64,000 bases of DNA. Origin: Amycolatopsis sacchari (GTDB taxonomy: Bacteria > Actinomycetota > Actinomycetes > Mycobacteriales > Pseudonocardiaceae). Under the pieces are notes generated by a model that had not been told where the DNA came from, made no database searches, and saw only the letters and a program-made list of their open reading frames with translations. Below, piece by piece: positions 2,080 to 61,103 of this stretch. The translations under genes were made by a program, and so were the position numbers. Location: contig NZ_FORP01000001.1 of the NCBI RefSeq assembly GCF_900114035.1, positions 186,001 to 250,000 of the forward strand. The letters are read 5' to 3'. Numbering within the stretch: the first letter of the stretch is position 1; every line of letters starts with the position of its first letter.

Positions 2080-3623
2080 GGCTCCTCCCGCCTGCCCGGC
2101 CGCGCCGTCCACACCAGCTTCGTCCCGCCCTCCGGCCGCGGCCCCACCGTCAGCGTGCCGTGCCAGCGGGCGGCGCGCTTCCGGAGGTTCGCCAGGCCCT
2201 GGCCGTGCGGCGAGCTGCCCGTGCACCCGACCCCGTCGTCGAGCACCGTGAGCGACAGCTCCCGGTTCCCGCGCTCCACCACCACTTCGACGGCCACGGA
2301 GTTCGCCCCGGCGTGGCGGGCCACGTTGGACAGCGCCTCCCGCACGGTCGCCAGCAGGTCGGCGCGCAGCGGCCCGGTGACCGCGGCGTCGAGCGGGCCG
2401 TCGAAGCTCACCCGGGGCTCGAAGCCGAGCATCGCCGTGCTGTCCTGCGCCATCCGCAGCAGGTCCGAACGCACCCCGCCGTGCGCCTCCGCGGGCTCCT
2501 GCAGGGAGAAGATGCTGTTGCGCACGTCCCGGATCGTGCGGTCGAGGTCCCGGACGAACCCGGTCACGCGCTCGGCGAGCTCGGGCTGCTTCGTCAGCCG
2601 GCTGAGCCCCTCCAGCCCGAGCCCGATCGCGAACAACCGCTGGATCACCAGGTCGTGCAGGTCGCGGGCGATGCGGTCGCGTTCCTCGAACACCACGAGC
2701 CGCCGCCGGTCCTCCTCGGCCCGCGCGAACTCCACGGCCAGCGCGGCGTGCGCGGCGAAGTCCCGCACCAGGCCGACCTCGGCGTCGGTGAACGGCTCCT
2801 CGTCGCGGAAACGCACCACGAGCAGCACCCCGAGCTTCTGCGAGCCCGCCTTCAGCGGCACCGCCACCGCCGAATCGAGGTCGGCGAAGGTGTCCGGTGC
2901 CCGGAGCCCGCTGTTGGCCTGCTGGATCGCCGCGTACCCGCCGTAGGAGCTGATCACGACCGGTTCGCCGCGGAGGAACGCGCGCCCGGACGCCGTGCCG
3001 TCGTAGGGGACGCGGGCACCGACGAGCCGCTCGTACCCCGGGTACGGCGAGGCGAGCACCTCGAACACCAGCGTGTCCGGCTCGGTTTCGCTGGGCAGCG
3101 CCACCGCACCCACCGGCGCGCCGGCCACGACCCGGGCGCGGTCGGCGATCGTGTGCAGGGTCGTGCCGCCGTCCTCACCGGCGAGCAGCGCCGCCGTGAC
3201 CTGCTGGGACGCCTCGCGCCAGCGTTCACGGCGCAGGGTCTGCTCGTAGAGGACCGCGTTCTCGATCGCGATGCTCCCCGCGGCGGCCAGTGCGACGACC
3301 TCGCCGCGGTCCTGCTCGGTGAACCCGCCGTCCCGCCTGGCCAGGTACAGCCTGCCGAACAGGCCGTCACGGGTGCGCAGCGGCACCGAGAGCGTCCCTG
3401 GCCCGGACGGCAGGTCCGCGGGGGTGCGGTACTCGCGTGGTTCGCCCGCTTCGACGACCCTGCCCAGGCGCCGCCCGGGCAGCAGCTCGGCCAGCACGCC
3501 GTACTCGGCGCCGACGAGCCCGCACGCGGATTCGACGACACGACGCAGCACGTCGGGCAGGCTCAGGTCCGCCGCTATCCCGACCACCGCGTCCAACAAC
3601 GCCCGCGCGCTGCTTTCGATCAC
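2076..3623 (-). CDS. GAF-domain sensor histidine kinase, DevS/DosS-like
   Basis: A 515-residue cytosolic kinase: GAF-A about 15-130, GAF-B about 150-300, HisKA_3 dimerisation helix with phosphoacceptor His323 (RIARDLHDLVIQRL), and a C-terminal HATPase with a DDGVGC box. The architecture matches the mycobacterial DevS/DosT oxygen sensors. GAF-A is shortened, however, and there is no histidine at all before residue 157, so the proximal heme ligand known in DosS (His149, in GAF-A) is missing. The signal sensed may therefore differ. The start is a GTG at 3623 preceded by GGGGAG. It is co-transcribed with the PNPOx-like gene upstream and the regulator downstream. Confidence 0.9.
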   Translation of the reverse strand: MIESSARALLDAVVGIAADLSLPDVLRRVVESACGLVGAEYGVLAELLPGRRLGRVVEAGEPREYRTPADLPSGPGTLSVPLRTRDGLFGRLYLARRDGGFTEQDRGEVVALAAAGSIAIENAVLYEQTLRRERWREASQQVTAALLAGEDGGTTLHTIADRARVVAGAPVGAVALPSETEPDTLVFEVLASPYPGYERLVGARVPYDGTASGRAFLRGEPVVISSYGGYAAIQQANSGLRAPDTFADLDSAVAVPLKAGSQKLGVLLVVRFRDEEPFTDAEVGLVRDFAAHAALAVEFARAEEDRRRLVVFEERDRIARDLHDLVIQRLFAIGLGLEGLSRLTKQPELAERVTGFVRDLDRTIRDVRNSIFSLQEPAEAHGGVRSDLLRMAQDSTAMLGFEPRVSFDGPLDAAVTGPLRADLLATVREALSNVARHAGANSVAVEVVVERGNRELSLTVLDDGVGCTGSSPHGQGLANLRKRAARWHGTLTVGPRPEGGTKLVWTARPGRREEP

Positions 3624-4243: not shown

Positions 4244-4885
4244 ATGGATTCGCTGCAGGGTTTCGAGCCGCTGCTCATCGTGATGCTGTGGCTGCTGATC
4301 TCCGTCTACTCGCGTGTGGCGCTGCAGCGGCGGTGGCGCACGTCCGCGAGTCCCGCGCCCGCGCCGGCTTCGCGGTCGCTGCGGCTGCGCTGGGAGCAGG
4401 CGGGGGAGCGGTACCGGCGGCTGGCGGGGGAGTACGCCGGCTACGAGTCGGACCCGCTGGAGGTGCTGCGGCTGCCCGCGCTCGCCGACCCGGCGGTGCC
4501 CGCGACGGCCCGGTTCATCGAGGCCTTCAGCGAGGCCATGGCCCTGCGGACCGAGGAGTACCCGCCGGAGCCGATGGCGCGGGAGTTCGTCGACGCCACC
4601 GCGCGGGCCGAACAGGCGTGGACCGCCGCGCGGGAGGCGGCGGAGAAACTGCGCGCGTCGCGGTTCACGGCGGAGGAGCGGGGACTGCTCGCGCAGGCGG
4701 TGAAACTGCTGGAACTGGCGCACCGCGGCGCGACCCCGGCCGAGCAGGAAGCCGCCTACGCCGCCGCGCGGCAGGTGCTGGCCAGGCTCGAACGCAGTGC
4801 GGGCACCCGCCTGGACTGGCGGGTGCCCGCACGGGCGCGGCAGGTGGTCGACCGCGAGGGAAAGCCGCCCCTGCCGCCGTCCTGA
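4244..4885 (+). CDS. Hypothetical membrane-anchored protein
   Basis: A 213-residue protein with one N-terminal membrane helix (about 8-22, PLLIVMLWLLISVYSRVAL) followed by a basic, charged cytosolic part predicted to be largely helical (many A, E and R residues from 45 to 195). I do not recognise a family. The ATG at 4244 is preceded by GGAGGAG at an ideal distance, so the much longer open frame upstream is not used. It is transcribed away from the PNPOx operon and ends 7 bp from the convergent ChaB-like gene. Confidence 0.65.
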   Translation: MDSLQGFEPLLIVMLWLLISVYSRVALQRRWRTSASPAPAPASRSLRLRWEQAGERYRRLAGEYAGYESDPLEVLRLPALADPAVPATARFIEAFSEAMALRTEEYPPEPMAREFVDATARAEQAWTAAREAAEKLRASRFTAEERGLLAQAVKLLELAHRGATPAEQEAAYAAARQVLARLERSAGTRLDWRVPARARQVVDREGKPPLPPS

Positions 4886-4892
4886 TACCGCG

Positions 4893-5303
4893 CTACTTCT
4901 TCTTGCGCGCCTTGGCGGTTTCCTTGGTGTTCGCGCGCTGCAGCGCCTTCACCAGCTCCGCCTTGTTCATCGACGACCGGCCCTTGATGTCGAGCTTCTT
5001 CGCCAGGTCGTACAGGTGTTCCTTGCTCGCCGAGGCGTCCACGCCGCCGGCGGTCTTCGTCGGCTTGCGGTTGGCGCCGCGGGCGGCCTGCTTGTCGGAG
5101 GGGCCCTTCTTGCCGCCCTCCTTCTCCTCCCAGTGGTCGCCGACCTTCTCGAAGGAGTGCTTCAGCGCCGCGAAGGCGGTCTGGTGCGCGCGGCGGCCCT
5201 CACCGTAGGTCTCGACCGCGGAGTCGTGGGTCTTCACCCACGTCTCCTGCGCCTTCTTGGGCGAGCGTTTCAAAGTGCTGGGCAGTGCTTCTCGTCCCGG
5301 CAT
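4893..5303 (-). CDS. ChaB family protein with C-terminal SAP-like motif
   Basis: A 136-residue basic protein. Residues 1-60 match the ChaB fold (start MPGREALPSTLKRSPKKAQ, then TWVKTHDSAVETYGEG). The middle is Lys/Gly-rich, and residues 95-127 (KEHLYDLAKKLDIKGRSSMN, then KAELVKAL) resemble a SAP/Rho-N helix-extension-helix that binds nucleic acid. ChaB was named as a cation transport regulator, but many actinobacterial copies are small stress-induced proteins of unknown role. It is transcribed in the same direction as the acidic 89-residue protein and the dehydrogenase upstream, and a stress role would fit. Confidence 0.75.
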   Translation of the reverse strand: MPGREALPSTLKRSPKKAQETWVKTHDSAVETYGEGRRAHQTAFAALKHSFEKVGDHWEEKEGGKKGPSDKQAARGANRKPTKTAGGVDASASKEHLYDLAKKLDIKGRSSMNKAELVKALQRANTKETAKARKKK

Positions 5304-6567: not shown

Positions 6568-7614
6568 ATGCGAGTCGTGGTGACCGGAGCGAGTGGCAAC
6601 GTGGGCACCAGCGTCGTGGAGGCGCTCAGCGCCGATCCGGCGGTGTCCTCCATCGTCGGCATCGTGCGCCGCCAGCCGGGGTGGACGGCGTCGAAGACGG
6701 AGTGGGCGCTGGCCGACGTCGCCAAGGACGACCTCGGCTACCTCGTGCGGGGCGCGGACGTCGTGATCCACCTCGCATGGCTGTTCCAGCCGACGCACGA
6801 CCCCGTGAGCACCTGGACGGCGAACGTGCTCGGCAGCATCAAGATGTTCGAGGCGGTGGGCCGGGAACGGGTGCCGGCGCTCGTGTACGCCTCGTCCGTG
6901 GGTGCCTACTCCCCGGGGCCGCAGGACACGCGCGTCGACGAGAGCTGGCCGACGCACGGCTGGCCGGAAGCGGCCTACCCACGCGAAAAGGCCTACCTGG
7001 AGCGCTACCTCGACGGGTTCGAGCCGCGCCACCCCGACACGCGCGTGGTGCGGATGCGGCCGGGCTTCATCTTCAAGCGGGAGTCGGCCTCGCAGCAGCG
7101 GCGGCTGTTCGCCGGGCCGCTCGTGCCCAACTTCCTCGGCCGGGCCGGGCTGCTGCCCGTCATCCCCGACGTGCCGGGGCTGCGGATGCAGGCGCTGCAC
7201 TCGGCCGACGTGGGGCAGGCGTACCGGCTCGCCGCGGTGAAGGACGTGCGCGGGGCGTTCAACGTCGCCGCCGAACCCGTGCTCGACGCCGACGTCCTGG
7301 CGGAGCTGCTGGGCGCGCGGAAGGTGAAGCTGCCGGGCTGGGCGCTGCGCGGGCCGCTCGCGGCGGCCTGGCGGCTGCACGCCGTGCCGGCGAGTCCGGG
7401 GCTGTTCGAAACCGTACTCCGCCTGCCGGTCATGGACACGGGCCGGGCACGCGCGGAACTGGGCTGGTCACCGGGTTACAGTGCCACCGACGCCATCGGG
7501 GAGTTCCTGGGCGGGCTGCGCGAGGGTGCGGGGCTGGACACGCCTCCGCTCGCCCCGGACGGCCCGCGCGGGCGGCTCCACGAACTCAGGACGGGCGTCG
7601 GCAGCCGACCGTGA
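6568..7614 (+). CDS. NAD-dependent epimerase/dehydratase family protein
   Basis: A 348-residue extended SDR with an N-terminal Rossmann motif (VVVTGASGNVGTSV, residues 3-16), a DVVIHLAWLF strand, and catalytic Tyr/Lys in AYPREKAYLE. Such enzymes act on nucleotide sugars or other NAD(P)-dependent substrates; the specificity is not visible. The C-terminal part is slightly longer than usual and ends in a polar tail. The ATG at 6568 is the first methionine of the fold. It is divergent from the dehydrogenase at 5650-6495 and shares a 72-bp promoter region with SigB-like elements in both directions. Confidence 0.85.
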   Translation: MRVVVTGASGNVGTSVVEALSADPAVSSIVGIVRRQPGWTASKTEWALADVAKDDLGYLVRGADVVIHLAWLFQPTHDPVSTWTANVLGSIKMFEAVGRERVPALVYASSVGAYSPGPQDTRVDESWPTHGWPEAAYPREKAYLERYLDGFEPRHPDTRVVRMRPGFIFKRESASQQRRLFAGPLVPNFLGRAGLLPVIPDVPGLRMQALHSADVGQAYRLAAVKDVRGAFNVAAEPVLDADVLAELLGARKVKLPGWALRGPLAAAWRLHAVPASPGLFETVLRLPVMDTGRARAELGWSPGYSATDAIGEFLGGLREGAGLDTPPLAPDGPRGRLHELRTGVGSRP

Positions 7615-7624
7615 GAGGACCTTC

Positions 7625-8242
7625 GTGCGCCTGACCCCGCGCGACACCCGCTTCTTCGACCTGCTCACCACCGCCGCGGGCAACCTGGTGACGGGAGCGG
7701 GCCTGCTGACCGAGCTGATCTCCGTGCCCATGGCGGAACGGGAGAAGGTCGCCCAGCTCATGCACGACACCGAGCACCTGGGCGACGACGCGACCCAGGA
7801 GATCATGCTCCAGCTCAACACCTCGTTCATCACCCCGTTCGACCGGCAGGACATCCAGCTGCTGGCCTCCCGCATCGATGACGTGCTCGACGACATGGAC
7901 GAGGCGGCCGACCTGGCGGTGCTGTACCGGATCGAGCAGTTCCCGCCGGGCGTGGAGGCGCTCGTCGAGCTGCTCGGGCGGGCCGCCACGCTCACCGCCG
8001 AGGCCATGCCCGGGATGCGCAAGGTCACCGAGCTGAGCGCGTTCTGGGAGGAGATCAACGCCATCGAGGACCAGGCCGACGGCGTGTACCGGCGGCTGCT
8101 CGCGCACCTGTTCAACACCGACGGCGCCGACCCGCTGACGGTGATGAAGACCAAGGAGGTCATCGACCGGCTCGAGTCGGCGGCCGACGCCTTCGAGCAC
8201 GTCGCGGACGTGGTGCAGACCATCGCGGTCAAGGAGTCCTAG
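7625..8242 (+). CDS. DUF47 (PhoU-like) regulator of the phosphate permease
   Basis: A 205-residue all-helical protein of the DUF47/PhoU-like family with the conserved metal-binding acidic motifs (HDTEHLGDDATQEI, RIDDVLDDMDEAAD, EEINAIEDQADGVYRR, DRLESAADAFEHVADV). These proteins accompany Pit-type permeases and modulate them. The GTG start at 7625 follows GAGAGGACC. The stop codon overlaps the start of the permease gene by one base (TAGTG), so the two are translationally coupled. Confidence 0.92.
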   Translation: MRLTPRDTRFFDLLTTAAGNLVTGAGLLTELISVPMAEREKVAQLMHDTEHLGDDATQEIMLQLNTSFITPFDRQDIQLLASRIDDVLDDMDEAADLAVLYRIEQFPPGVEALVELLGRAATLTAEAMPGMRKVTELSAFWEEINAIEDQADGVYRRLLAHLFNTDGADPLTVMKTKEVIDRLESAADAFEHVADVVQTIAVKES

Positions 8243-49222: not shown

Positions 49223-52200
49223 GTGACCCGACGTCTGCGCATCGAAGACCTCACCGCCGTGGCGGTGCCGGAACACCCGGCGCTGTCCCCGGACGGCACC
49301 GAGGTGCTGTACGTGCTGCGCACCTGCGACCGCGACGCCGACGAGAACGTGTACACGCTCTGGCGGGCGAACCTCGACGGCGGCGACGCCCGGCCGTTGA
49401 CGCGCGGGCGCGCCGACACCGCGCCCGCCTGGTCGCCCGACGGCCGGCGCGTGGCGTTCCTGCGGGACGGGAACGTGTGGCTGCTGCCGTTGGACGGCGG
49501 CGAGGCCGAACAGCTCACGTCGCTGCCGCTCGGTGCGGGCACCCCGGTGTGGAGCCCGGACGGGTCGGCCATCGCCTTCTCCGCACCCGTGGACACCGAG
49601 GGCACCCCGGACGACGCCCCGATGGCCGCGGACCGCCTCGACTACCACGCCGACGGCTCGGGCTGGCTGCGCGGCATCCGCAAGCACCTGCACGTGCTCG
49701 ACCTCGAGACGCGGCAGTGCCGCCAGGTCACCTCCGGCGACTGGCACGCCGGCGACCCGGCGTGGTCGCCGGACGGCACCAAGCTCGCCTTCTCCGCCGC
49801 GACGGGCGCCGACCGCGACCTGCGCCTGCGCGTCCCCGTGCACGTCCTCGACGTCACCGACCCGGCGGCCCGGCCCGAGCAGGCCGGTCTCGCCGAGGGC
49901 GTCGGCGGCCCGGTGACGTGGACCGCGGACGGCACGGCGCTGCTGGTCGTCGGCCACCCCGGTGGGCCGAAGGGGCACGCGCGGCTGCTGCGGGTGCCGC
50001 TCGACGGCGGCGAGGTCACCGACCTCGCGGGGTCCTTGGACCGCAACGTGATGCCGGGCGGTCCCGGCTACCCGGGTGCGCTGCCGCGCCTGACCGCCGA
50101 CGGCGGCGCCGTGCTGTTCTGCGTACGTGAGCGCGGCTGCACCCACCTGTACTCGGTGCCCGTCGACGGCGGCGCGCCGCGCCCGCTCCTCACGGGTGCG
50201 GGGCGCACGGTGGCGGGCCTGTCGATCGCGGGGAGCACGGCGGTCGTCGTGCTCGTCACGCCGGCCTCCTACGGCGAGATCGTCCGGCTCGACCTGGAGA
50301 CGGGCACCGAGACCGTCCTCACGCGACACGGCGACGCACTGTCCGAAGTGGAGCTGTTCGCCAAGGAGGAGCGGGAGTTCCGCATCTCCGACGGCACGGT
50401 CGTGCAGGGCTGGCTGATCCGGGACCCCGCCGTCACCGGACCCGCGCCGCTGCTGCTGGACGTCCACGGCGGCCCGCACAACGCGTGGCACGGCGGCGCC
50501 GACGACGTGCACCCCTACCAGCAGGAGCTGGTCTCGCGCGGCTGGGCGGTGCTGCTGGTCAACCCGCGTGGCAGCGACGGCTACGGCGAGGAGTTCTACA
50601 CCGCCGTGGATTCCGCGTGGGGCACGGCCGACGCCAAGGACTTCCTGGAGCCGCTCGACGAGCTGGTGAAGGAGGGCGTCGCGGACCCGGAGCGGCTCGC
50701 CGTGGCGGGCTACAGCTACGGCGGCTACATGACGTGCTACCTCACCAGCCGGGACAACCGCTTCGCGGCCGCCGTCGCCGGTGGCGTCGTCTCCGACCTC
50801 TCGAGCATGGCGGGCACCTCGGACGAGGGGCATTTCCTGCTGGAGTACGAAGTCGGGGCGCTGCCGTGGGAGGAGCCAGGGCGCTTCGCGGAGATGTCGC
50901 CGTTCGCCAAGGTCGACCAGGTCCGCACGCCGACACTGGTCGTGCACGGCGCCGCGGACCTGCTGTGCCCGGTGGGGCAGGCGCAGCAGTGGTACAGCGC
51001 GCTGCGGGAGCGCGGCGTCCCGTCGCGGCTCGTGCTCTACCCCGGCGCCCCGCACGCGTTCATCCTCAACGGCAAGCCCTCCCACCGGATCGACTTCAAC
51101 GAGCGCGTCGTCGACTGGGTCGAGCAGTACGCGAACCACCGCCGCCCGCGCGCCGACGCGGCGCACTGGCAGCGGCGGCTCACGGAACTGGCCGAGCGGC
51201 ACCACGTGCCCGGCGCCGCGCTGGGCATCCTGCGCCTGCGCCCCGGGCAGGAGGACGAGCTCGTGGAGGCCGCCACCGGGGTGCTCAACGTGGAAACCGG
51301 CGTGACGGCCACGACGGACTCGGTGTTCCAGATCGGGTCCATCTCGAAGGTCTGGACCACCACGGTCGTCATGCAGCTCGTCGACGAGGGCCTGCTCGAC
51401 CTGGACGCCCCCATCGCCGATGTGCTGCCCGAGCTGCGCCTGGCCGACCCCGACGTGGGCAAGCAGGTGACGATGCGGCACCTGCTGACCCACACCAGCG
51501 GCATCGACGGCGACGTGTTCACCGACACCGGCCGCGGCGACGACTGCCTGGAGAAGTACGTGGCGGGGCTGGCGGAGGTCGCGCAGAACCACCCGCTCGG
51601 CGTCACCTGGTCGTACTGCAACTCCGGCTTCTCCCTGGCGGGCCGGGTGATCGAGAAGATCACCGGGAAGACCTGGGACGCGGCGCTGCGTGAGCGCCTG
51701 TTCACGCCGCTGGGCCTGCGGCACACGGGCACCCTGCCGGAGGAGGCGCTGCTGCACCGGACGGCGACCGGGCACTCGGGCACGACCGAGCCGGTCAAGG
51801 CACCGGTCTGGACGCTGCCCCGCTCGGCAGGCCCCGCCGGGCTGATCAACGCCACGACGGCCGACGTGCTCGCGTTCGCGCGGCTGCACCTGACCGGCGG
51901 CCTCGCGGCCGACGGCACGCGCCTGCTGAGCGAGGAGAGCGCCGCGGCGATGGCGGCCAAGCAGGTGGACCTGCCGGACAAGCACACGCTCGCCGAGTCG
52001 TGGGGGCTGGGCTGGTTCCGGCTGGACTGGGGCGGGCGCAGGCTGATCGGGCACGACGGCAACACGATCGGCCAGGCCGCGTTCCTGCGGCTGCTGCCCG
52101 ACGAGGGGCTCGCGGTCACGCTGCTCACCAACGGCGGCAACGCGCGCGACCTCTACCAGGACCTCTACGGCGAGATCTTCGCGGAGCTGGCGGACGTCGA

Positions 52201-58759: not shown

Positions 58760-59092
58760 TCAGCTGTTCTCCCGCAGCCGCACGTCGTCGGCCCGGGAAC
58801 GGGCCACGCGCAGGCCGGGGCACCAGCCGGAGGTGGTGGTGCTGTACCGGCGCCGGTTCGGCGGCGGGGCGAGGTGGCCGTGCAGGTGCCATTCGCGCCC
58901 GTCGAAGGCCCAGTGCAGCAGGTCCTCCTCCCACGGCCGGTCCAGCAGCGCCTGCCGCTGCGCCAGCTCGTGCTGCGTCGCCAGGAACTCGCGGATTCGT
59001 GCCAGGAACCTCATGTCTGCCAGGGTCCCCGGAACGACGGTGTACCACGAGTGGCAGTCCGGCACGTTGTCGTCAAAATGCTGCCACGTCAC
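58760..59092 (-). CDS. Hypothetical protein downstream of the DUF692 cluster
   Basis: A 110-residue protein starting about MTWQHFDDNVPDCHSWY, with aromatic-rich and charged sequence (LDRPWEEDLLHWAFDGREW) and a polar C-terminus. Family unknown. The start is a GTG at 59092 overlapping the stop of the previous gene (GTGA); a GTG two codons earlier (59098) is an alternative. Its position and coupling suggest it belongs to the MNIO-type cluster. Confidence 0.55.
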   Translation of the reverse strand: MTWQHFDDNVPDCHSWYTVVPGTLADMRFLARIREFLATQHELAQRQALLDRPWEEDLLHWAFDGREWHLHGHLAPPPNRRRYSTTTSGWCPGLRVARSRADDVRLRENS

Positions 59093-59367
59093 CGCCACCA
59101 GCGGCGGCGGAGGTGCCCCTGCCTCCGCGCCCACGCGACGAAGGCGCGCGCGTCCTCCCGCGCGCGAACGCCTTCCGTGCGCGGGTGCGCACGGGCGTAC
59201 TCGGCGAACAGGTCCGGAAAGCGCTCTCCGAGCCGCCGGCACTCGTCCGGCGCCAGCTTCGCCACGACCCGGCCGCGCTTGGCCCGCAAGGCGGCGGACT
59301 CGACGCGCAGCCGTTCCTCGTCGAAGCCCTCCGGTGGCGGTGCCCCGGTGAGCAGGGCCCGCGGCAA
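59089..59367 (-). CDS. Small SCO6045-C-terminal-like domain, separated from DUF692 by a TGA
   Basis: About 92 residues from a TTG at 59367; homology-like sequence continues upstream (DRLAAAQAALPRALLTG) as far as the DUF692 stop. The frame is the same as that of DUF692, with only one TGA (59410-59412) between the two, so a full-length fusion would be about 375 residues. An ATG overlapping that stop (59413) is in another frame and would need a frameshift to reach this domain. Either the protein is made separately, by readthrough of TGA-C, or the gene is broken. The domain resembles the C-terminal part of SCO6045-type proteins and may recognise the peptide substrate. Confidence 0.55.
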   Translation of the reverse strand: MPRALLTGAPPPEGFDEERLRVESAALRAKRGRVVAKLAPDECRRLGERFPDLFAEYARAHPRTEGVRAREDARAFVAWARRQGHLRRRWWR

Positions 59368-59409
59368 CGCGGCCTGCGCCGCCGCGAGCCGGTCCCGCCG
59401 CGGCTGTTG

Positions 59410-60213
59410 TCATCCCGTGCCCAGTGCCGCGCGGATGGCCGCCAGTTCGGCGGCCAGCTCGCTGTCGGCGGGGAAGTCGTCGTCGCGTTCGAGCAGGACG
59501 CCCGGCGGATCGGTGCGGGCCGCCAGCTCGGTGAGCAACGCCAGCACCTCCGGCCGCACCGGGTGGGCGTGCGTGTCGTGGTACACGCCGTCGTGCTCCA
59601 CGCCCCCCGCGATGTGCGTGTACGCCAAGCGTTCCAGCGGAAGCTCGTCCAGCAGCGCCACGGGATCGGTGCCCAGGTTGCGGGCGTTGGCGTACAGGTT
59701 CGCCACGTCGACGAGCAGCAGGCAGCCCGTCCGCCCGGTCAGCTCGGCCAGGAACTGGCCCTCCGTCAGCTCCGCGTCCGGCCACTCCAGCAGCGCCGCG
59801 ATGTTCTCCAGCGCCAGCGGCACGGAAAGCGCTTCCTGGACCGCGCGGACGTTGGCCACCAGCACGTCCAGCGCCTCCCGCGTGCGGGGCACCGGCAGCA
59901 GGTGCCCGGAGTCCAGCCCGCCCGCGCGGACGAAGCACACGTGATCGCTCACCAGCGGCGCGTCGAGCGCCTCGGCCAGCTCCGCCAGGTGCCGCACCCG
60001 CGCCGGGTCCGGTGGTTCCGCGCCGCCGAGTGACAACGACACCGCGTGCGGCAGCACCGGCGTGCCGCGTTCCCGCAGCACCGCCAGCGATTCGGGCAGC
60101 CGGTCCGGCCGCACGTTCTCGGCGACCACCTCGACGAAATCCACGCCCGGCAGCCGTTCGACGGTCAGGTCCAGCTCCGGCCGCCAGCCGAGCCCGACAC
60201 CCAGCGCGCCCAT
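59410..60213 (-). CDS. DUF692 family enzyme (MNIO-type oxidase)
   Basis: A 267-residue TIM-barrel protein of the DUF692/MbnB group, now called MNIO: multinuclear non-heme iron oxidases that modify cysteines or other residues in peptides. Metal-binding residues of the family are visible: [68 protein letters not shown] and [12 protein letters not shown] at 60213 shares one base with the stop of the upstream Cys-rich membrane protein gene, so enzyme and likely substrate are made together. Known partners in other systems are MbnC- or HvfC-type helper proteins; here the downstream small domain could play that role. Confidence 0.88.
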
Positions 60214-61103
60214 CAGCCGCCGCACCCGCCTCCGCCGCACCCGCCGCCACCGCACGAAGAACCGCTGTTGCACGACGACCCGCTGCTGCACGACGACCCG
60301 CTGCTGCACGACGACCCGCTGGAGTCACCCCCGGACGACCCCGGGTAGCCGGTCGCGCGCAGCTGCTGGGCGATCGCCTCGTCCGGGTAGGCCACCAGCC
60401 CGCCCGCGGCGACCAGGCCCACCGCACCCGCCAGCACCGGTACCCGGATGTGGCTGTGCCGCCGCGGTTCGGCGCCCAGCACGGCCGAGCGCACGTGGGC
60501 ACCGGCCCGGCTCAGCCACCGCGCCCGCGGCCGCAGCGCGACGCCCGCGGCGACGGCCGCCAGCACCACCAGTACGACCAGGAACCCGACCGGCCGGTGC
60601 AGCCGGATGCCGTTCACCAGCCGCGCCACCCCCAGCGCCACGACGGCGAGCAGGGGCAGCGCGGTCACGAACAGGGTGCTCACCCGGGGCGGGACGAGCA
60701 GCCCGCGCTCGGTGAGCGACGCCTGGACCGCCCGCACCGGAGCGGAGGTGCCCAGCACCGAACGGACCTGCCGCAGCGTGCTCCCGCCGCGTTCCTTGAC
60801 GTGGTCGAACACGGCCTGCCGCAGCGGGGAGCCGGTGGCACGCCTGCCCACCGCCCGCAACCGGCCGCCCCGCTGCACGCGCAGCCGCTCGGCGTGCACC
60901 AGCGCGGCCACCGCCGTGTCGACGAGGCGCTTCGGGCCGCCGACCAGGAAGGCCGCCTCGTCCACGGTCAGCATGGCCTGCGCGCCCGCGGCCGGCCGCC
61001 ACGCCAGCAGGTACCGCAGCGCGGCCGTCAGCGCGCCCGCGACCAGCAGCGCGCCCACGTACACGCCGAGGAACTGCGGCCCCGACAACCCCCAAGGCTC
61101 CAT
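60213..61103 (-). CDS. TIGR04222-type membrane protein with Cys-rich C-terminal tail
   Basis: A 296-residue protein with an N-terminal hydrophobic segment (about 8-31), a soluble domain (about 45-150), two further membrane segments (about 165-190 and 220-245) and a low-complexity tail (residues 258-296) made of Ser, Gly and Cys. The tail has six Cys at 266, 272, 278, 284, 289 and 294, spaced 6, 6, 6, 5 and 5 residues apart, in GSSCSS and GGGGC units. This matches the TIGR04222 family, which occurs next to DUF692. I infer that the tail is the modified substrate. ATG at 61103. Confidence 0.85.
60265..60318 (-). repeat. 18-bp tandem repeats encoding the Cys-rich tail
   Basis: Three units of the plus-strand sequence CTGCTGCACGACGACCCG (the first with TT for CT) in 54 bp. 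They keep the reading frame and encode repeated GSSCSS units on the minus strand. Confidence 0.8.

Follow-up and report, generated by a model that had tools for sequence, protein, structure and literature searches.

The chemistry of multinuclear iron oxidases (MNIOs) of the DUF692 family is familiar chiefly from exported or released peptides, and one of these enzymes, TglH, acts on a C-terminal Cys. Here we describe an MNIO encoded together with a TIGR04222 membrane protein and a small partner protein in Amycolatopsis sacchari, within a stretch of 64,000 nucleotides (contig NZ_FORP01000001.1, positions 186,001 to 250,000) that is referred to as the window, with coordinates counted from its first letter. 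The locus joins a known kind. TIGR04222 proteins beside MNIOs have been reported in Actinomycetota, the C-terminal Cys segment was proposed as the substrate, and small PME-type 2 partners were defined, for instance a Saccharothrix protein of 115 residues (Antoine et al. 2025, PMC12452194). As both the pairing and the tail-substrate idea are already in print, neither is new here. We add the near universality of the partner in one MNIO subfamily, the GPP34 relationship, an argument for a cytoplasmic tail, the conservation of the tail Cys and a set of MNIO loci without a Cys-tailed neighbour. The model that we develop, in which the MNIO and a DUF2063-like partner would oxidise the Cys tail of the anchored TIGR04222 protein, probably inside the cell, has in our judgement about equal prospects of proving right or wrong.

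In the available text of PMC12452194, the published TIGR04222-MNIO clusters agree with the window locus in gene families, tail composition, gene order, the PME-type 2 partner and the substrate hypothesis. They are described there as lacking DUF2063 genes, as containing a PME-type 2 gene in at least 10% of cases with many apparently partnerless, and as having a periplasmic tail, whereas in our analysis nearly every locus has the partner, which is sometimes fused to the MNIO, and a cytoplasmic tail is probable; the denominators differ, being MNIO loci of one subfamily here and TIGR04222 clusters there. Neither GPP34 nor GOLPH3 occurs in the available text of that paper, and no link between MNIOs and GPP34/GOLPH3 was found in the literature among the matches listed. 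The bufferin systems (BufA/BufB/BufC) also combine an MNIO, a DUF2063-type partner and a Cys-rich substrate encoded upstream, according to the same available text (PMC12452194). However, they involve Sec-exported precursor peptides and full DUF2063-RRE partners, and the window MNIO does not reach the NCBIfam equivalog cut-off of BufB (205 vs 310 bits) or of HvfB (164 vs 360 bits). MbnB/MbnC and TglH/TglI share the MNIO fold, the ligand set and the presence of a partner protein, but they are distant in sequence (47 bits for the window MNIO on the MbnB profile vs a cut-off of 325) and their substrates are free peptides. The membrane protein resembles GPP34/GOLPH3/Vps74, with homology at the profile level across residues 46-143 and a similar fold across residues 42-254, whereas we know of no GPP34 protein with the transmembrane (TM) helices and Cys tail of TIGR04222.

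The window locus is a TIGR04222-MNIO-partner operon, whose genes follow one another on the minus strand in the order TIGR04222, MNIO and a small reading frame. The features are as follows.

60213..61103, minus strand: TIGR04222 membrane protein of 296 amino acids, matching the NCBIfam model TIGR04222.
Within this protein, from hydropathy, an AlphaFold2 (AF2) model and hhalign: TM1 at about residues 11-29, a GPP34-like domain at about 46-143, TM segments at about 141-159 and 172-190, and short helices to about 252.
60216..60320, minus strand: Ser/Gly tail, the 35 C-terminal residues with six Cys and a CGG end; putative MNIO substrate.
59410..60213, minus strand: MNIO (DUF692, PF05114) enzyme of 267 amino acids, matching PF05114.
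59089..59409, minus strand: DUF2063-like partner (PME-type 2), with the family-conserved body open in frame.
58760..59101, minus strand: small gene adjoining the operon and not a part of it.

The original prediction of a TIGR04222-type protein whose Ser/Gly tail contains six Cys, followed by a DUF692 gene whose start shares one base with its stop, was confirmed. The window protein scores 115.7 bits on the NCBIfam TIGR04222 profile (E = 2.3e-33) and so passes the domain cut-off of 43 bits, the six Cys lie within the 35-residue tail, and base A60213 is common to the TIGR04222 stop TGA (60215-60213) and the MNIO start ATG (60213-60211). The match to PF05114 is nearly complete, covering MNIO residues 5-263 on profile positions 1-261 of 263 (283 bits, E = 2.4e-84). 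Two small genes had also been proposed as partner or accessory proteins. This holds for the one at 59089, which belongs to a conserved partner family, and not for the one at 58760, rejected as an accessory gene with a single homologue, in Amycolatopsis bartoniae (L134), among 138 scanned regions (the window stretch, L063-L102 and L117-L213). The source genome carries a second full TIGR04222-MNIO-partner set on another contig (G000:C33, with TIGR04222 and MNIO within 49828-51428), in which the tail has three Cys and the GTG start of the partner overlaps the MNIO stop.

The window MNIO aligns with 3bww, TglH (8hci) and MbnB (7dz9). Residues H56, H91, E136, D169, N172, H200, D213, H215 and E242, which we take to be the MNIO metal ligands, are invariant in all 121 rows (112 distinct) of MNIO relatives scoring above 300 bits, a limit outside which the broken MNIO of L095 falls. 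Because of this alignment and invariance, the sequence suggests an active enzyme. In L095 itself (2728-3502, minus strand; genome G050) the MNIO is split across three frames, and its TIGR04222 tail contains one Cys vs four in L066 of the same genus; this single case is suggestive, and a sequencing artefact is possible.

The distribution of the genes was followed in 60 genomes of the same family, with 32 MNIO loci, in 246 genomes of the phylum, where at most 11 candidates were scored per genome and some may therefore be missed, and in the 80 best matches out of at least 584, a selection that favours close relatives. As nine MNIO loci are identical in the family and 80-locus sets, the two sets of counts are not independent. 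Within the family, TIGR04222 (over the cut-off) was found in 31 genomes, MNIO in 31 and both in 30 (Fisher p = 1e-14, with genomes treated without regard to phylogeny), and the only genome with TIGR04222 alone, G018, has a Ser/Gly tail without Cys. Among the candidates scored in the phylum, the corresponding numbers were 10, 14 and 9. The co-occurrence of DUF692 and TIGR04222 proposed as a check is thus found within the family and does not refute the prediction there, but at seven loci and in some other genomes the MNIO has no Cys-tailed neighbour (see below).

At the level of loci, a Cys-tailed TIGR04222 gene adjoins the MNIO in all family loci except L102, which has no real TIGR04222, and L095 (30 of 32), and in 66 of the 80-locus set, including L170 with a doubtful Cys-tailed hit. 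Cys-tailed TIGR04222 genes on the same strand within 4.5 kb of the MNIO numbered none in 14 of the 80 loci, one in 36, two in 17, three in 9 and four in 4. Family loci display the TIGR04222 array ahead of the MNIO, with Cys-free members also within the arrays. Streptomyces loci have TIGR04222 after the MNIO, and several of them (L187, L190, L191, L192, L202, L205 and L208) have, downstream of the Cys-tailed TIGR04222, another that is Cys-free.

The partner family directly follows the MNIO in all 32 family loci and in 78 of the 80-locus set, the remaining two being cut by a contig end. Partner and MNIO form a single reading frame in 24 of the 80, all assigned to Streptomyces, Mycobacterium, Mycolicibacterium or Actinobacteria bacterium. 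When matches up to E = 10 were considered, PF09836 (DUF2063) was reached by 25 of 61 partner relatives (best E = 8.4e-5) and every other Pfam family by at most two; the same scan gave no DUF2063 match for the window partner itself. Its AF2 model is a four-helix domain (pLDDT 82.7). With this model, NGO1945 (3dee), TglI (8hi7) or another DUF2063 structure was not among the Foldseek and VIA rows listed, and a PDB sequence search with the partner gave no relevant match.

The start of the window partner counts against an intact operon, as the gene appears frame-shifted. An ATG (59413-59411) overlaps the MNIO stop and is one base out of frame with the conserved partner body. A fault in the assembly, a genuine frameshift or an unusual start codon may lie behind this. 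The window copy might accordingly be decaying while a second complete set persists elsewhere in the genome, an explanation that we take seriously and still consider unlikely. Its case is built on the distance from the ATG to the conserved GAC codon (19 bases, vs 18 in the closest relative, L134), on the lack of any in-frame ATG, GTG or TTG ahead of the conserved first helix (the first in frame is TTG 59367) and on the second set, whose GTG start overlaps the MNIO stop. Against decay, the partner body frame, the MNIO ligands and the tail are all intact in the window copy, and a draft-assembly error, a TTG or a rarer start would equally account for the out-of-frame start.

The tail was compared across 64 aligned TIGR04222 proteins. 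From residue 258 on, it consists of 51% Gly, 24% Ser and 11% Cys, and Ser or Gly precedes Cys in 226 of 237 cases, giving (S/G)C(G/S) units that usually finish with CGG or a longer Gly run. The end is CGG in 35 of the 64, and in 55 it is a Cys with at least two Gly and no more than one extra S, D, E or N. Among 54 non-overlapping pairs formed from distinct relatives, nine pairs being without Cys, replacement affected 19 of 427 aligned Cys vs 276 of 2836 aligned Ser/Gly residues (p = 0.015). Replacements were counted from both sides with p calculated on halved counts and scored without a Cys bonus; the result is alignment-dependent and phylogeny was ignored. Because the tail Cys change less than Ser/Gly, the comparison suggests, moderately, that they are under selection.

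In the proposed mechanism, the soluble MNIO would work together with the small DUF2063-like protein, whose probable task is to present the substrate. As substrate, the best candidate is the Ser/Gly tail, with its Cys, of the TIGR04222 protein whose gene immediately precedes that of the enzyme; this protein would be anchored by its N-terminal helix and further TM segments. With a GPP34/GOLPH3-like soluble domain, its tail would probably lie on the cytoplasmic side, where the enzyme could gain access to it without export. By analogy with bufferins and methanobactin, the oxidised Cys might be a thiooxazole or an oxazolone-thioamide, and the product could serve as a ligand that binds copper or a different soft metal while tethered to the membrane and facing inward. 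The central idea of the original prediction was that the MNIO has its target in an anchored protein, namely in the C-terminal tail with its Cys; the conserved adjacency and the somewhat stronger conservation of the tail Cys support it without proving it.

The topology bears directly on this mechanism. From profile comparison, we conclude that the soluble domain of TIGR04222 is distantly homologous to GPP34/GOLPH3. Using hhalign, TIGR04222 was matched over residues 46-143 to a profile of 27 GPP34 proteins from the same bacterial family with probabilities of 91-94% and E values of 1e-6 to 1e-7 (91% and 9.3e-7 in one run), whereas the controls, comprising the MNIO, the partner and 20 column-shuffled profiles, all remained below 2% (shuffled ones below 1%). 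In the VIA fold comparison, GOLPH3/Vps74 took first place and accounted for five of the eight highest rows, with Z = 6.7, 6.5, 6.0, 5.7 and 5.6 and alignments of 149-154 residues, and the top Foldseek row was Vps74 (E = 2.4, probability 0.77). At E up to 1, a GPP34 Pfam match was found in 4 of the 64 alignment members (best E = 7.6e-4), and similarity to DUF2207_C in 16 (best E = 1e-5), covering TM segments in the two members with ranges. The window protein gave no match to Pfam GPP34 (PF05719), and ten relatives scanned singly also fell short of its cut-off.

Hydropathy separates the TM segments from the stretch ahead of the tail. At a Kyte-Doolittle (KD) value of 1.6, TM1 was recovered in 100% of the 64 sequences, TM2 in 72% and TM3 in 95%, compared with 38% for the pre-tail segment, which reaches KD 1.2 in 72%. 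The mean number of Lys plus Arg is 0.05 in the N-terminus, 3.7 in loop1, 1.6 in loop2 and 6.1 in loop3, a distribution that gives an N-out/C-in pattern. The AF2 model (pLDDT 83.5) shows long helices at 8-34, 141-167 and 173-190, and a pre-tail helix of only 8 residues (227-234). In addition, there are 32 distinct short paralogs whose start lies beyond TM1; for 31 of these, no TM-like stretch is present in the upstream 60 residues. Cys tails are present in 31 of the 32, and the 25 pre-tail residues hold 5.3 Lys plus Arg on average, with a minimum of one.

Several results pull the other way. The GPP34 profile homology is restricted to residues 46-143, and the pre-tail segment alone has no profile homology to GPP34. 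The GOLPH3 Z scores, at most 6.7, are of intermediate size, and unrelated rows score as high as 6.1. In the window protein the pre-tail segment is hydrophobic (KD 1.94) and a potential fourth TM. The hairpin of the short paralogs is not uniformly clean either, as 14 have one and 18 have two TM-like segments at KD 1.6, while at KD 1.2 the numbers are 6 with one, 16 with two, 9 with three and one with four.

These points favour the published view, which in the available text of PMC12452194 is based on AlphaFold models and on the predicted topology of the TM segments, and in which the MNIO-modified tail is extracytoplasmic, a bufferin-like metal sponge tethered outside, and modification would be needed before the last segment crosses. 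The hydrophobic window segment, the share of sequences whose pre-tail segment reaches either KD level and the varying TM counts of the short paralogs all agree with it. We nevertheless hold an outside tail to be rather unlikely: 62% of sequences fall below KD 1.6 in the pre-tail segment vs 0-28% for TM1-3, the modelled pre-tail helix is short, loop3 is the most basic of the measured stretches, and a basic stretch also stands ahead of the tail in the short paralogs. The GPP34 homology argues in the same direction, since the GPP34 domain is cytosolic in GOLPH3.

Taken with the charge pattern, the AF2 model and three robust TM segments, this homology makes a cytoplasmic tail the likelier topology. 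The "surface" tail suggested originally is doubtful on these grounds, while the description as an anchored protein with a Cys tail stands. More tentatively, as a possibility somewhat short of probable, TIGR04222 proteins may represent GPP34/GOLPH3-like proteins of bacteria that are anchored in the membrane and have their tails oxidised in the cell by MNIO-partner complexes. They would form an inward-facing, tethered array of modified Cys, often from several tandem paralogs per MNIO, and not an exported metallophore. To our knowledge, a modified resident protein of this kind would differ from other MNIO products. If the idea is true, MNIO products on the inner membrane face would belong to the cell's own metal or stress handling. 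Topology also determines which experiments make sense, and the partner-MNIO fusion of Streptomyces and mycobacteria offers a simple construct for reconstitution.

The loci without a Cys-tailed neighbour weigh against the tail as the substrate throughout the subfamily. In seven of them (L181, L184, L194, L198, L207 and L209 of Streptomyces, and L211 of an Actinobacteria bacterium) the MNIO ligands and the partner are intact and TIGR04222 is Cys-free or missing; a whole-genome search of these seven genomes found no Cys-tailed TIGR04222, with the match in L211 running off the contig. Genomes G082, G252 and G187, all of one genus (g51), presumably Streptomyces, likewise hold an MNIO without a Cys-tailed TIGR04222, and the family genome with MNIO alone, G031, has no TIGR04222 at all. 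Conversely, orphan Cys-tailed TIGR04222 genes away from the MNIO were observed in the MNIO-holding genomes of L070, L082, L088, L091 and L101. An intact MNIO and partner without a Cys-tailed TIGR04222 point to another or an additional role of the MNIO subfamily there. Among the 14 loci without a neighbour, a contig end close to the MNIO truncates L160, L188, L189, L195, L204 and L213, with a Cys-tail fragment visible in L160, and L199 has a Cys-tailed TIGR04222 elsewhere in its genome. G220 and G241 have Cys-free neighbours, yet each encodes, at a remote site, a TIGR04222-like protein whose tail contains one Cys.

No convincing alternative Ser/Gly-rich Cys stretch was found near the MNIO in 21 loci scanned, a scan that did not extend to other Cys-rich peptides; its hits were the L160 and L176 tails and one L119 stretch on a frame overlapping other genes. 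DUF4142 was considered as an alternative substrate in Streptomyces and rejected, as it occurs in 9 of the 80 loci (own profile) and the member scanned has no Cys. In L119, a DUF4142 protein (7179-7976, minus strand) adjoins the MNIO-partner fusion, and a similar-looking reading frame lies at 4392-5186 (minus strand).

That unmodified thiols of the tail bind metal, or that the tail has some other purpose, while the MNIO-partner pair acts on a different, possibly non-Cys, substrate and the genes are adjacent because they share a metal or stress regulon, would suit the Streptomyces that keep invariant MNIO ligands and a partner without a Cys-tailed TIGR04222, but appears improbable given the near-strict family co-occurrence with Cys-tailed proteins, the greater conservation of tail Cys than of Ser/Gly and the lack of a Cys/Ser/Gly-rich candidate in a convincing frame near the MNIO at those loci.

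Beyond the operon, we observed a recurrent gene neighbourhood. Within 7 kb of the 66 loci with full flanks, HemQ was identified in 45, CgoX in 38 and MsrB in 36 (own profiles). All three are absent from the window and from the surroundings of the second copy in its genome. This absence from both copies, together with the msrB-hemQ-hemY neighbourhood that presumably exists in mycobacteria, led us to reject a functional link with HemQ/CgoX and to read the arrangement as old synteny. HemQ lies downstream on the opposite strand except in L150. The HemQ and protoporphyrinogen oxidase genes are mostly convergent downstream of the operon, with MsrB and a small conserved gene upstream, as in L141 and L173.

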